Notes under the pieces: generated by a model
Databases searched by the model: none
What the model was told of the DNA's origin: nothing
The model's input: only the letters and a program-made list of their open reading frames with translations
Assembly (NCBI GenBank): GCA_946042585.1
Contig: CAMGDO010000001.1
Location: forward strand, 1 to 16,912
Direction of reading: 5' to 3'
Length of the DNA: 16,912 bases
Origin: an uncultured Clostridia bacterium
Lineage (GTDB): Bacteria; Bacillota; Clostridia; Christensenellales; Aristaeellaceae
Made by a program: the position numbers and the translations under genes
In this document: in pieces, positions 1 through 16,454 of the stretch
Layout of the letters: each line of letters opens with the position of its first letter
Position numbering within the stretch: the first letter of the stretch is position 1

Positions 1-22
1 GTCAGATGTGTATAAGAGACAG
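1..22. other. Nextera/Tn5 sequencing adapter remnant (artefact)
   Basis: Positions 4-22 read AGATGTGTATAAGAGACAG, the 19-base Tn5 mosaic end used in Nextera libraries, preceded by GTC as in the read-1 adapter. This is library DNA joined to the contig, not genome. Any protein model starting MCIRDR from position 6 is a translation of the adapter. Genomic sequence starts at about position 23. Confidence 0.97.
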
Positions 23-387
23 ATCGCTACATGCGCCCGCTGATCGAAAACGGATATGTTTATATCGCCATGCCGCCGCTGTACAAGGTGACGAAAAACA
101 AGCAGGAGCACTATGTATACGACGACAACGAGCTGCAAAAGCTCCTGGATCGCATCGGCCGCGATCCCAAGCCCGAGATCCAGCGCTACAAAGGTCTGGG
201 CGAGATGAGCAGCGAGCAGCTGTGGACCACCACCATGAACCCCGAAACGCGCACCATGATGCAGGTGAGCGTGGAGGACGCCATGGCTGCCGACGAAATC
301 ATGAGCCTGCTGATGGGCGACAAGGTGGAGCCCCGCCGTGAATTCATCGAGCAAAACTACAATATGGTCACGGATCTGGATCTGTAA
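23..387 (+). CDS. gyrB: DNA gyrase subunit B, C-terminal fragment
   Basis: This is the C-terminal 120 or so residues of the ATPase subunit of DNA gyrase, the type II topoisomerase that introduces negative supercoils. The frame reads [20 protein letters not shown], then the strongly conserved [15 protein letters not shown] and [13 protein letters not shown] segments, and ends with [14 protein letters not shown]. These are the end of the TOPRIM region and the GyrB tail. The tail and the gyrA gene immediately downstream favour GyrB over ParE. The 5' part (GHKL ATPase and transducer domains) is missing because the contig ends in adapter sequence; there is no sign that the gene itself is broken. 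The stop is TAA at 385-387. The gene probably forms an operon with gyrA, 111 bases downstream. Confidence 0.95.
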
Positions 388-3053: not shown

Positions 3054-3517
3054 TCAGCGGATACGCTTGTCCAGCTTCACCGCCAGATGCGTGCCAATGC
3101 TCTGGAACACCTGCACCAGCGGCTCCACCAGAATCATCAGAATCAGGAAAGGCACGGAACGCAGCAGGTTAATAACCACATTCAGTATGCGCATCACGCT
3201 CCGAGGCAGGGGCAGCACGCCTTTTCCCTCCCCCGCCACCAGCGGAATTCCCAGCGGCAGACCGATCAGCAGGGAATCCGCCACGGGATTGATCTCAGCG
3301 GAAATGGCATAGTTGGAATTGATGATGGCACAGTCGAGATCGGGCAGCTGAACGGGCAGCTGAGCGGCTTCAATCTCTTCAATTTTCAGGTTTTCGGGCT
3401 TTTCCACAATGTCGCGCTTGGTGGCGGTGATGCCGGCGCCTTCCCTGAGCCTGATCACGCCGGCCGCCTCCAGCTTGTGAGAGCCAGGGACAAAATGATC
3501 GCAGCAAACTTTTTCCT
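3054..3517 (-). pseudogene. metQ: Collapsed metQ-metI remnant (methionine ABC transporter)
   Basis: Reading leftward, the pieces are: (a) a MetQ-like signal peptide KKFAAIILSLALT with AAGGAG (3525-3530) 7 bases upstream, but AGG (3515-3517) where ATG should be; (b) in another frame, a middle piece of the MetQ substrate-binding protein, KLEAAGVIRLREGAGITA through EAAQLPVQLPDLDCAIINSN to NPVADSL; (c) fused in frame, MetI permease pieces: GLPLGIPLV, NVVINLLRSVPFLILMIL, and the MetI C-terminus LVQVFQSIGTHLAVKLDKR. Compared with normal MetQ (about 270 residues) and MetI (about 220), there seem to be three deletions: about 130 residues inside metQ, one from the metQ end into metI (and metN if it lay between), and the centre of metI. 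A deletion with frame change plus a lost start codon makes this a pseudogene. An assembly collapse is the main alternative. Confidence 0.82.
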
Positions 3518-3584
3518 GGTTTTTCTCCTTTTTTTATTTCTTTTCTTTGGCTGTGAGCAACGGGAAAACGTATTTACCTTCATC

Positions 3585-3650
3585 TCACCGCCGCATTCGG
3601 CGGCTTTCACAGCTGCTCCGAATCCAAAGCACAGGAAAAGACATCCGCAT
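3585..3650 (-). CDS. Possible 21-residue ORF after the attenuator
   Basis: An ATG at 3650 follows AAAGGAG (3658-3664) with a 7-base spacer, good initiation geometry. The ORF encodes 21 residues starting MRMSFPVLWIRSSC and stops at TGA. A 6-bp GC stem (CCGCCG and CGGCGG around a 4-base loop, about 3588-3603) covers its end. It begins only about 10 bases after the terminator T tract, so it would be translated only in read-through transcripts. It matches no family I know and has no Met run. It may be a second leader ORF, leftover DNA or chance. Confidence 0.25.
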   Translation of the reverse strand: MRMSFPVLWIRSSCESRRMRR

Positions 3651-3673
3651 GTGACCGCTCCTTTCAGCAAATC

Positions 3674-3708
3674 AAAAAAGGGAAAGCCTTGATGAAGCCT
3701 TCCCTTTT
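3674..3708 (-). terminator. Intrinsic terminator (candidate attenuator) upstream of metQ
   Basis: On the minus strand AAAAGGGAAGGCTT, loop CATC, then AAGGCTTTCCC and six T residues. The stem has one mismatch and one bulged base. It lies about 50 bases after the stop of the Met-rich small ORF and before the metQ remnant. That is the position of an attenuator in a leader region, although it could also be the plain terminator of the small ORF. Confidence 0.75.
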
Positions 3709-3721
3709 CTATCGCAGAAAC

Positions 3722-3761
3722 CGGTATGCCATCCTCCCCTTTCGGGAAAGGGGGCTTACCG
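3722..3761 (-). promoter_or_regulatory. Leader hairpin overlapping the small-ORF stop codon
   Basis: CCCCTTTC (3736-3743) and GAAAGGGG (3746-3753) form an inner palindrome. CGGTATGCC (3722-3730) can pair with GGCTTACCG (3753-3761), with one mismatch, as an outer stem. The outer stem includes the TAA of the Met-rich ORF, so a ribosome finishing that ORF would cover one arm. On the minus strand, AAGCC and TTCCC of the first arm can alternatively pair with GGGAAGGCTT of the downstream terminator. This is by-eye pairing without folding energies. Confidence 0.5.
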
Positions 3762-3854
3762 CTGAGAAAACACATCATCCACAGGAACACAGCAACGCAT
3801 GCACATGTACATCGACATCTGCATCATCTTGCACATCGCCATGTTCTTTTTCAT
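3756..3854 (-). CDS. Methionine-rich 32-residue peptide, candidate metQ leader peptide
   Basis: The ORF has its own SD (GGAAAGGAG) ending about 9 bases before the ATG, and a consensus-like promoter just upstream. Its first 20 residues are MKKNMAMCKMMQMSMYMCMR: 9 of 32 residues are Met, all in the first 19 codons, plus four Cys (8, 18, 21, 22). The rest is polar, with no hydrophobic helix, so it is not a signal peptide. A hairpin overlaps the stop, a terminator follows, then the remnant of a methionine transporter. Known leader peptides (trp, his, leu and others) are enriched in the amino acid handled by the genes behind them, so I infer that this ORF senses charged Met-tRNA. A small metal-binding Met/Cys peptide is an alternative. 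No S-box or T-box core was seen nearby. Confidence 0.6.
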   Translation of the reverse strand: MKKNMAMCKMMQMSMYMCMRCCVPVDDVFSQR

Positions 3855-3891
3855 GAATGCTTTCTCCTTTCCTCCATGCTGTGGGGATTAC

Positions 3892-3921
3892 GCTATACCA
3901 GCTATACATCCGCCGTGTCAA
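3892..3921 (-). promoter_or_regulatory. Promoter of the Met-rich leader
   Basis: On the minus strand, TTGACA (3916-3921), an 18-base spacer, then TATAGC (3892-3897) preceded by TGG, giving an extended -10. A start near 3885 would give a 5' UTR of about 30 bases before the ATG at 3854. Confidence 0.72.
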
Positions 3922-3958
3922 GCAAAGATGCGGCTGTTTTCCGTTTTTCTTTTGTATT

Positions 3959-4714
3959 TTACCGGCCGTTCGCCGTAACGCAGGGCAGCACATCCTCCAC
4001 CGCCGCCAGCAGCACATTCTCTTCCACAAAGCCCTCGGCGGATTCCGGCGCGCAATTGACAGAGATCAGCACGCTCGTGCCCTTATAGCCCGTGGGCATA
4101 TAGAAGGCCAGCGCCTGGGTGTACTTCATGACGCCCGAGCCGTCTTCCGATTCATAGACCATCTGATAGGAGAAATACCTGGCTGTGCCCTTTTCGGTCT
4201 TGTAGTCAGTAATATCGGTGATGGAGCCGTCCTCGCCGACCATGCTGCCCAGCGCATTGTGTGCCTGCTCCACCATTTCCTGCGGCGTCTTGGCGATGCC
4301 CAGCACATACACATAGTTCAGCGGGCTGTCCTCATCCACGGGCTTGAAGACGAAGCTGGTGCGCAGATCCACTGCGGTGGACGTGCCGTCCACATCCTCA
4401 TCGCTGAGCACATAGCCTTCGGGCGTATCCACCGTGGCAATCTTGTAATATTCGCTGTTCTTGCCATCGCCCAGATCGGCCACCAGCCAGTTGTCCTGCG
4501 CGTCCACCAGCGCGTCGTTGCGAACCTTCAGGGAGCCGTCGTCATAAATAAAATTATACCACACAATCAGGGCGAGAATCACCACGACCACCGCAATGGC
4601 AATCCCCTTGATCACCCACTGGGTCTTCGCGGACTGCTGCGCCCACCATTCCTTAAAGGTCGGATCGGCTTTTTTCTGATATTTCTGCGGGCGCTTGATT
4701 TTCTTTTTGCTCAT
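3959..4714 (-). CDS. Membrane-anchored protein of unknown function
   Basis: A 251-residue protein whose family I do not recognise. The first 33 residues are short and basic (MSKKKIKRPQKYQKK), followed by one hydrophobic helix at about residues 34-55 (VIKGIAIAVVVVILALIVWY) and about 195 residues of mixed, acidic sequence. By the positive-inside rule the N-terminus is cytoplasmic and the main domain is outside the membrane. No catalytic motif is evident. The two Cys (one in SVNCAPES, one near the C-terminus in VLPCV) lie in the outer domain and could form a disulfide. AGGAAG about 8 bases before the ATG supports the start. A -10-like TATGATAAAAT lies about 45 bases upstream, with no clear -35 box. 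It is probably transcribed alone: a terminator closes the unit upstream, and the leader promoter begins 38 bases beyond its stop. Confidence 0.85.
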   Translation of the reverse strand: MSKKKIKRPQKYQKKADPTFKEWWAQQSAKTQWVIKGIAIAVVVVILALIVWYNFIYDDGSLKVRNDALVDAQDNWLVADLGDGKNSEYYKIATVDTPEGYVLSDEDVDGTSTAVDLRTSFVFKPVDEDSPLNYVYVLGIAKTPQEMVEQAHNALGSMVGEDGSITDITDYKTEKGTARYFSYQMVYESEDGSGVMKYTQALAFYMPTGYKGTSVLISVNCAPESAEGFVEENVLLAAVEDVLPCVTANGR

Positions 4715-15100: not shown

Positions 15101-15129
15101 TTGCCTGTCGCGTCCGTCCGTGCTATAAT
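15101..15129 (+). promoter_or_regulatory. Promoter of the cysteine desulfidase gene
   Basis: TTGCCT (15101-15106), 17-base spacer, perfect TATAAT (15124-15129), preceded by TGC (extended -10). It lies just before the gene, so this gene is transcribed independently of the sugar operon. Confidence 0.87.
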
Positions 15130-15164
15130 AGCATTATCCTATCCATTGCCGGAGGGCAGACCGC

Positions 15165-16454
15165 ATGCAAAAGACAGACGCGCGCTACGCCGCCTATGTG
15201 CAGATTCTCAGGGATGAATTGATTCCCGCCATGGGCTGCACCGAGCCCATTGCTCTATCCTATGCCGCCGCCGTTGGACGGCAGACGCTTGGCTGCCTTC
15301 CCCTTCGGGTGCTGGCGCAGGTAAGCGGCAGCATCATCAAAAACGTGAAAAGCGTCATCGTGCCGCACACCAACCATCTCAAGGGCATTCCCGCCGCCAT
15401 TGCCGCAGGCATTGTGGCAGGGCGCGCGGACAGACAGCTGGAGGTCATTTCGGATGCAACGGCGGAGGAAATCGCCGCCATCAGGGACTACCTGGAAAAA
15501 ACGCCCATCGAGGTGCGCCCGGTGGATAACGGCGCGGTGTTTGATATCCTGCTCACCCTGTATGCCCAGTCATCGTATGTCCGGGTGCGTATCGTTCATT
15601 TTCACACCAATCTGGTGCTCATCGAAAAGGATGGATGCGTGCTGCTTGAAAAGCCCGCCGTCCTGCAAAAAACCGCTGAGCGCGTCGACCGGTCGCTTCT
15701 GAGCATGGAAGGTATCTGGGATTTTGCCTCAACAGTCGAATTGCCGGATGTGGAGGACGTGCTCAATCGCCAGATTGAATACAACACCGCCATCGCCCGA
15801 GACGGCATGGCCCACGACTACGGCGCGAACATCGGCAAGGTGCTGCTGAGCGCCTATGGCAGCGATGTGCGCACGCGCGCCCGGGCCATGGCCGCAGCGG
15901 CCTCCGACGCGCGCATGAACGGCAGTGAGCTGCCCGTGATCATCAATTCGGGCAGCGGCAATCAGGGCATTGCCTGCTCCGTTCCCGTCATCGAATATGC
16001 GCAGGCGCTGGGCGCTTCTCACGAGGCGCTTCTGCGCGCGCTGGCGCTGTCCAATCTCATCGCCATCCATCAGAAAACCGGCATCGGCACACTCAGCGCC
16101 TATTGCGGCGCAGTCAGCGCGGGCGCTGCCGCCGGCGCGGGCATTGCCTATCTGAGCGGCGGCGGCTATCAGGAAGTCATCCACACGGTGGTCAACGCGC
16201 TGGCCATTGTCTCGGGCATCGTATGCGACGGCGCCAAGGCCAGCTGCGCGGCGAAGATCGCCGCGGCGGTGGACGCAGGCATTCTCGGCTTTCATATGTA
16301 TCAGCAGGGGCAGGAATTCCGCGGCGGCGACGGCATCGTCATGAAGGGCGTGGAGGCCACCATCCGCAGCGTCGGCCTGCTCTCCACCCAGGGCATGCGC
16401 GAAACCAACAACGAAATCATCCATCTGATGACGGATTCGCCCGTCAACTGCTGA
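15165..16454 (+). CDS. cyuA: L-cysteine desulfidase (CyuA/CdsB, UPF0597 family)
   Basis: A 429-residue cytoplasmic iron-sulfur enzyme that breaks L-cysteine into pyruvate, ammonia and sulfide (related to the Fe-S L-serine dehydratase alpha chain). The family signature ELIPAMGCTEPIALSYAAA contains C25, and C314 (SAYCGAV) and C354 (GIVCDGAK) lie 40 apart. This matches the three cluster-binding Cys of archaeal CdsB (25, 282, 322, also 40 apart). INSGSGNQG and TGIGTLSAYCG are further family marks. GGAGGG (15151-15156) lies 8 bases before the ATG. A separate strong promoter and terminator make it a single-gene unit. It may serve cysteine detoxification or use as a carbon or sulfur source. A serine or other amino acid substrate within the superfamily is the main alternative. 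Confidence 0.93.
   Translation: MQKTDARYAAYVQILRDELIPAMGCTEPIALSYAAAVGRQTLGCLPLRVLAQVSGSIIKNVKSVIVPHTNHLKGIPAAIAAGIVAGRADRQLEVISDATAEEIAAIRDYLEKTPIEVRPVDNGAVFDILLTLYAQSSYVRVRIVHFHTNLVLIEKDGCVLLEKPAVLQKTAERVDRSLLSMEGIWDFASTVELPDVEDVLNRQIEYNTAIARDGMAHDYGANIGKVLLSAYGSDVRTRARAMAAAASDARMNGSELPVIINSGSGNQGIACSVPVIEYAQALGASHEALLRALALSNLIAIHQKTGIGTLSAYCGAVSAGAAAGAGIAYLSGGGYQEVIHTVVNALAIVSGIVCDGAKASCAAKIAAAVDAGILGFHMYQQGQEFRGGDGIVMKGVEATIRSVGLLSTQGMRETNNEIIHLMTDSPVNC

Follow-up and report, generated by a model that had tools for sequence, protein, structure and literature searches.

A candidate methionine leader-peptide attenuator in front of metQ genes of Clostridia

Introduction

Methionine genes in Bacillota are usually controlled by riboswitches or T-boxes. 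A stretch of 16,912 nucleotides from an uncultured Clostridia bacterium (contig CAMGDO010000001.1, termed the window in the following) raises the question of whether a methionine transporter operon may instead be governed by a translated leader, as an initial annotation of this DNA had proposed. Leader-peptide attenuation is textbook knowledge for Trp, His, Leu, Thr, Phe and other amino acids, and the trp, his and leu leader attenuators of Proteobacteria work through control codons, alternative pairing and a terminator, the same mechanism that is envisaged here for methionine. To our knowledge, no classical leader attenuator with methionine control codons has been described, and the literature that we searched, which comprised open-licence papers such that absence is not proof, yielded nothing relevant on a methionine leader peptide among the titles listed.

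Data sets

Relatives were collected from three sources, i.e. by comparing a MetQ profile with 60 relatives, by comparing the protein from locus L030 with 308 genomes of the family, and from a named genome collection (best 80 of 510). Statistics refer to 73 named loci (L094-L166) from these best 80 of 510, which are assigned to Clostridia, to subgroups thereof or, in the case of L154, to Bacillota only; six others were excluded. An open reading frame was counted as ORF1 when it was preceded by a Shine-Dalgarno (SD) sequence, contained at least five Met in 20 residues and was situated at most 420 nt upstream of metQ. The 42 leaders analyzed in detail comprise 34 of the 35 named loci with ORF1 (L139 was omitted), the window and seven leaders from a second, distant MetQ clade.

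The leader and the operon remnants in the window

The window carries the following elements, all on the minus strand:

3892..3921, minus strand, promoter-like TTGACA-18-TATAGC read from the sequence (TTGACA 3921-3916, TATAGC 3897-3892, 18-nt spacer)
3864..3872, minus strand, SD sequence of ORF1, GGAAAGGAG, read from the sequence
3756..3854, minus strand, ORF1, a Met-rich leader ORF of 32 codons plus stop with 9 Met and 4 Cys, MKKNMAMCKMMQMSMYMCMRCCVPVDDVFSQR
3764..3779, minus strand, 5' strand of the predicted antiterminator in the ORF1 tail (computed pairing; swap tests)
3736..3753, minus strand, 7-bp hairpin
3690..3705, minus strand, 3' strand of the predicted antiterminator, i.e. terminator 5' arm plus loop (computed pairing)
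3673..3711, minus strand, intrinsic terminator of -20.4 kcal/mol with a T-run at its 3' end
3585..3650, minus strand, uORF2, a second leader ORF known across relatives, MRMSFPVLWIRSSCESRRMRR, with CGA-ATG at 3599-3594
3264..3473, minus strand, metQ remnant of about 70 residues (about residues 44-113 of the MetQ from locus L121), by homology
3057..3275, minus strand, metI remnant (residues 41-104 and 202-234 of MetI from L121, the latter piece at E 0.001)

The promoter, the SD sequence, the 32-codon ORF with nine Met in its first 19 codons, the terminator and the remnants of metQ and metI are all present as initially annotated. The hairpin that had been said to overlap the stop codon of ORF1 begins 2 nt after it and therefore abuts it. 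Similar promoter pairs were seen by eye at the same position in relatives. Among 50 SD-preceded ORFs of 8-60 amino acids found in one scan of both strands, in which nested starts were counted, ORF1 is the one richest in Met.

The genes that a leader of this kind would control are those of the transporter, and here the window itself offers little, as its own operon is broken. The metQ remnant covers positions 121-184 of PF03180 only and runs directly into metI residues 41-104 (3275-3090). Judged by eye, the start of metQ, the stretch after the signal peptide and much of the body are gone, and a search of the window with metN from L121 gave no match. The genome assembly (59% complete, 287 contigs) contains a second permuted metQ on another contig (G000:C154), which is preceded by a Met leader of its own (MSNRVHLMAMRMGMCMMCMCSDFSCACRRA), an SD sequence and a terminator. 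In the window, the leader thus looks intact in front of a decayed operon. A non-functional relic that has outlasted the lost transporter operon is the likely reading of the structure, given the loss of most of metQ, the unmatched metN, the fragmented metI and the other leader-equipped metQ in the same genome, even though ORF1, terminator and uORF2 of the window are still open and well formed.

The first ORF of the window (6-341) begins with MCIRDR, the translation of the end of a Nextera transposon, and the start of the contig probably stems from an adapter.

MetQ proteins with a permuted fold

Intact operons are found in relatives, with the gene order metQ-metN-metI in L121. Their MetQ proteins match PF03180 in swapped order. 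Positions 94-234 of the profile come first, and both lobes are covered in two stretches. Chains of known structure are swapped likewise, with residues 98-237 of 4k3f aligning to residues 22-161 of the query and residues 5-96 of 4ef1 to residues 184-275. A structure predicted from 34 sequences reached a mean pLDDT of 91.5, and the first lobe of this model fits the best of the known MetQ structures to 1.4-1.8 A. As judged from these alignments, MetQ is circularly permuted, a single ORF encoding the C-terminal part of the fold ahead of the N-terminal one. Full-length permuted metQ genes are present in L121 (4001-4846), in others of L094-L166 (72 pass the length filter), in L040-L050 and in L063, and the proteins form two distant clades in the MetQ tree. 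No published case of a permuted MetQ was found in the literature searched; the accessible part of PMC4990184 describes a divergent topology, but for a different binding protein. In five Campylobacter loci (L167-L171), the match to the permuted MetQ extends over roughly 1.1-1.25 kb, as would be expected of a tandem of two metQ genes, and a tandem of this kind is a possible route to permutation.

A Met-rich ORF upstream of metQ in relatives

ORF1 precedes metQ in 35 of the 73 named loci drawn from the best 80 of 510, where 40 dinucleotide shuffles per upstream region set the chance level at 0.075 among 73 loci. Terminators follow these Met-rich, SD-preceded ORFs, and the expectation that such arrangements would be found upstream of intact metQ genes is thereby borne out. 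As a control, the same criterion was applied to 184 regions upstream of further long ORFs from these loci, and two of them contained such an ORF. In the 42 leaders, Met makes up 24.5% of residues in frame vs 1.1 and 0.7% in the other two frames, and it is concentrated at positions 2-22 (300 of 882 residues, 34%), with 3% (11/386) later on. Cys accounts for a further 11.9% of ORF1 residues (151/1268) and is present in both halves of the peptide.

The wealth of Met and Cys and the recurrence of MxMCM motifs could speak for a free-standing small protein, e.g. a metal-binding one, that resides upstream of metQ by coincidence, as both residues bind soft metals. An alignment of 21 ORF1 peptides points in another direction, because its invariant or near-invariant columns consist of Met only. 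No copy of ORF1 unlinked to metQ was recognized by eye within the 73 loci, in which nine further Met-dense ORFs appeared, again by eye, to be antisense or due to chance. A single pattern run over 60 genomes matched only the window; this pattern is narrow, too narrow to exclude a regulon. When the search was widened beyond the family to 391 genomes from the same class, one (L188) of the 17 contiguous loci with a permuted MetQ that were inspected carried a Met leader. No leader was recognized in the inspected stretches upstream of canonical metQ genes. One canonical locus, L017, contains an ORF with four Met about 270-335 nt upstream.

Terminator and alternative pairing

An intrinsic terminator is located past the ORF1 stop in all 42 leaders (-13.9 to -27.7 kcal/mol). 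A value of -13.9 kcal/mol or better was attained by 17 of 420 shuffled stretches, and a single one equals its real counterpart. The tail of ORF1 contains a strand (medians -18 to -4 relative to the stop) that is predicted to pair with the 5' arm plus loop of the terminator. In 39 of the 42 leaders, this strand overlaps the region that a terminating ribosome would cover. The pairing letters differ greatly from lineage to lineage, e.g. CGAUG:CAUCG, CAACA:UGUUG, UCUUCG:CGAAGA, GUGUG:CACAC and AUGCG:CGCAU, examples that serve as illustrations and not as a test because they were picked as the best duplex. Modelled sequestration of the terminator arm amounts to 0.66 with a stalled ribosome, 0.53 for shuffled sequences and 0.35 with the ribosome at the stop (n = 42; the value at the stop was set to 0 for L096, in which the arm lies under the ribosome). 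In the window itself there is little difference (0.78 stalled vs 0.61 at the stop).

Co-variation was assessed by a swap test on 27 diverged cluster representatives. Tails paired with their own terminators at -13.92 kcal/mol vs -10.57 for mismatched ones, i.e. 3.4 kcal/mol better, and none of 20,000 permutations was as low as the own pairs. The Met run (15,756 of 20,000 permutations) and the nucleotides that follow the stop (19,396 of 20,000) served as controls and exhibited no advantage of own pairs, and a hand-made set of 25 leaders gave a similar result for the tail. The own terminator ranked first in six of the 27 cases, among the top five in 15 and in the lower half in five, with L133 last. 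Taken one by one, 13 of 42 leaders surpass shuffles of their tails at the 5% level, and six (L121, L133, L138, L141, L043 and L047) do not exceed the mean of the shuffles; the antiterminator of single leaders is weak. A 24-nt tail, TTCGATGGGCTTTCAGATAAACGG, is identical in six loci and is read in one frame in L094, L103, L109 and L112 and in another in L098 and L121. This indicates that in those loci it is the RNA that has been kept and not the peptide.

A terminator behind every ORF1 studied, a tail that is conserved as RNA over two frames and co-varies with the terminator, Met-only invariant columns and, as detailed below, the replacement of ORF1 by an operator in sister lineages led us to reject the free-standing peptide, which we regard as highly unlikely.

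Proposed mode of action

Four of the features that define a leader-peptide attenuator are present in this system. A short SD-preceded ORF is rich in codons of the amino acid in question, a terminator is situated between ORF and structural genes in 42 of 42 leaders, a mutually exclusive antiterminator with a strand covered by the ribosome at the stop is predicted computationally, though weakly for some leaders, and the downstream genes serve the same amino acid (MetQ, MetN and MetI by homology; remnants only in the window). What comparison across loci shows is the ORF together with its terminator, an alternative pairing that co-varies, and linkage to metQ. The original proposal of leader-peptide attenuation also gains weight from the antiterminator, from its co-variation and from the tail whose identical DNA is read in two different frames. 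The system, which is carried by some uncultured gut bacteria, very probably constitutes a ribosome-mediated transcription attenuator that reads charged methionine tRNA and controls a permuted metQ-metN-metI transporter operon. With ample methionine, the ribosome translating ORF1 would pass the Met codons, proceed to the stop and cover the tail of the ORF, such that the terminator forms and transcription ends. With scarce methionine, the ribosome would stall in the Met run and leave the tail free to pair with the terminator in its 5' arm and loop, whereupon RNA polymerase would continue into metQNI.

As the leaders are also rich in Cys, methionine may not be the only signal, and cysteine tRNA is possibly read as well. 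Sensing of cysteine, either by itself or jointly with methionine, appears rather unlikely to us; Cys is indeed frequent in both halves of ORF1 and a cysteine-rich short ORF resides behind a LysR-type box in L185, but Met occurs twice as often and clusters in the part of the ORF in which stalling would release the antiterminator, and the target belongs to a methionine transporter family. The short ORF in L185, MIILKFRDNGGRKQMCGSCCC, is located within 200 nt upstream of metQ, ends in MCGSCCC and is perhaps a cysteine leader.

Riboswitches, T-boxes and a LysR-type operator

A switch worked by a riboswitch or a T-box instead of a ribosome would agree with what is usual for methionine genes in Bacillota, and one locus (L132) does carry a T-box. 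Rfam covariance models, including those for the S-box and other SAM riboswitches and for the T-box (RF00230), gave no hit at gathering score in any part of the window, in accordance with the original observation that an S-box or T-box core is lacking, and positions 3500-4000 remained without a match even at E<=1. Neither SAM riboswitches nor T-boxes were matched in 16 leader loci, which gave just a cobalamin riboswitch and a tRNA, both away from the leader. Such a switch was therefore rejected for the leader region, and its probability is close to nil. No S-box was detected in the 32 of the 73 named loci that were searched or in 20 canonical metQ loci, the latter being free of any Rfam match. 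Among the same 32 named loci, L132 alone contains a T-box, and it lacks a Met leader. In L132, the T-box and a TwoAYGGAY RNA (3392-3646 and 3743-3907) are located upstream of the permuted metQ.

The leader-less relatives feature a different element. The motif ATAGN7CTAT is absent from all 34 ORF1 loci and present in 28 of the 39 others, an exclusion with a Fisher probability of 1.5e-11 in a statistic that ignores relatedness. All 595,580 bases of the loci contain 30 copies. According to Pfam, a LysR-type regulator is encoded by the neighbouring gene in L115 and in L124, the two leader-less loci for which this was examined. In the accessible text of PMC5359408, a CmhR site 5'-TATAGTTTSAAACTATA-3' upstream of metQ from S. 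pneumoniae is reported to activate metQ. It shares the ATAGN7CTAT spacing with the box in most leader-less relatives, but as the DNA site of an activator it is of a different nature, and the box is missing where ORF1 is present. On the basis of these motif counts, the main alternative control in the bacteria studied appears to be a LysR-type box rather than an S-box or T-box; the initial annotation had named the latter two as the usual alternatives, which holds for the T-box in one leader-less locus. The box was also found in three (L179, L182 and L185) of the 17 permuted MetQ loci from the class-wide search, and it is absent from the inspected stretch of 22 canonical metQ loci.

In a quick tree of 89 MetQ sequences (41 with leader, 38 with box, 10 with neither), at least 13 changes between leader and box states are required, seven of which are forced by well-supported branches; this tree is that of MetQ itself and can neither separate gain from loss nor exclude transfer of the module. 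Leader and LysR-type operator seem to have been exchanged repeatedly in front of metQ.

Near the leader in the window (around 3880), no CmhR-like LysR-type sulfur box is present. The sole copy in the window, ATAGCATTATCCTAT at 15128-15142 (0.02 expected in the window), resides 22 nt before an ORF at 15165 that belongs to PF03313, a family whose relatives presumably include cysteine desulfidases.

A second short ORF with a CGA-AUG element

Many loci contain a second SD-preceded ORF, uORF2, between the terminator and metQ. It frequently ends in NRESRRM, TDRM, RDRM or VFRM, with a CGA codon directly before AUG, which is often the last sense codon. As uORF2 was first met via the motif CGAATG, it was recounted without recourse to this motif, which gave 74 short SD-preceded ORFs in that position (60 of 88 loci), 24 of them ending in Arg-Met. 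Arg is encoded by CGA in 46 of 52 Arg-Met pairs, the others being CGC (four, three of these in ORF1-type leaders), AGG and CGG. CGA provides none of 124 Arg codons in metQ genes and 18 of 118 elsewhere in the same short ORFs; CGA is thus enriched throughout these ORFs, most strongly before Met. CGA-ATG is repeated in frame in several loci. On the metQ strand, CGAATGTG occurs upstream of 27 of 73 metQ genes, with 42 copies in all 595,580 bases, and in three (L179, L181 and L188) of the 17 loci from the class-wide search. The codon pattern for NRESRRM, the commonest ending, was found in one of 60 genomes, and no paper in the literature searched contains NRESRRM as a word.

uORF2 co-occurs with ORF1 in 20 loci and is present without ORF1 in 15, of which 12 carry the box. 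A terminator of -10 kcal/mol or better follows uORF2 in just three of 26 loci with both ORFs and in seven of 24 without ORF1, a consensus structure around uORF2 in 14 sequences did not exceed three pairs, and a ribosome at CGA-AUG leaves the modelled accessibility of the metQ SD sequence unchanged (0.43 naked vs 0.42 stalled, n = 29). According to the accessible part of PMC4046918, slow reading of CGA was observed with a his-leader reporter in a bacterium, which renders a pause before AUG plausible. It is conceivable, though we incline somewhat against it, that methionine supply is read twice per mRNA, once by the ORF1 attenuator and once by a tuned pause at CGA-AUG of uORF2 that would gate metQ without terminator or SD masking, the whole module being swapped repeatedly with the LysR operator.

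Relation to known systems and significance

Several systems, as described in the accessible portions of the respective papers, resemble the one proposed here. In the ilv-leu operon of S. aureus, a leucine-rich attenuator peptide is encoded, and this other case from Bacillota shares a leader ORF with control codons, a terminator and a stalled ribosome that favours the antiterminator; it differs in sensing Leu and in controlling a biosynthesis operon and not methionine uptake (PMC5794164). The His leader peptides upstream of hisS and hisZ in bacilli were likewise found computationally in Firmicutes and replace another sensor, but contain His codons and precede tRNA synthetase paralogues (PMC2965389). 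The Met T-box of a methionine transporter in L. lactis also couples methionine transport to tRNA-Met by read-through of a terminator, yet it relies on direct binding of tRNA by RNA and does not involve a translated ORF (PMC7058034). As far as its accessible text goes, a survey of Actinobacteria reports no RNA element for methionine operons (PMC1262725).

Methionine is encoded by a single codon, and AUG doubles as start codon. A leader with a run of Met codons would therefore report on elongator tRNA-Met in an unusually clean manner. The apparently repeated and mutually exclusive exchange of leader and LysR-type operator before the same gene would provide a natural series in which a switch based on protein and DNA is traded for one based on RNA, and the CGA-AUG element may represent a new and testable kind of leader signal.
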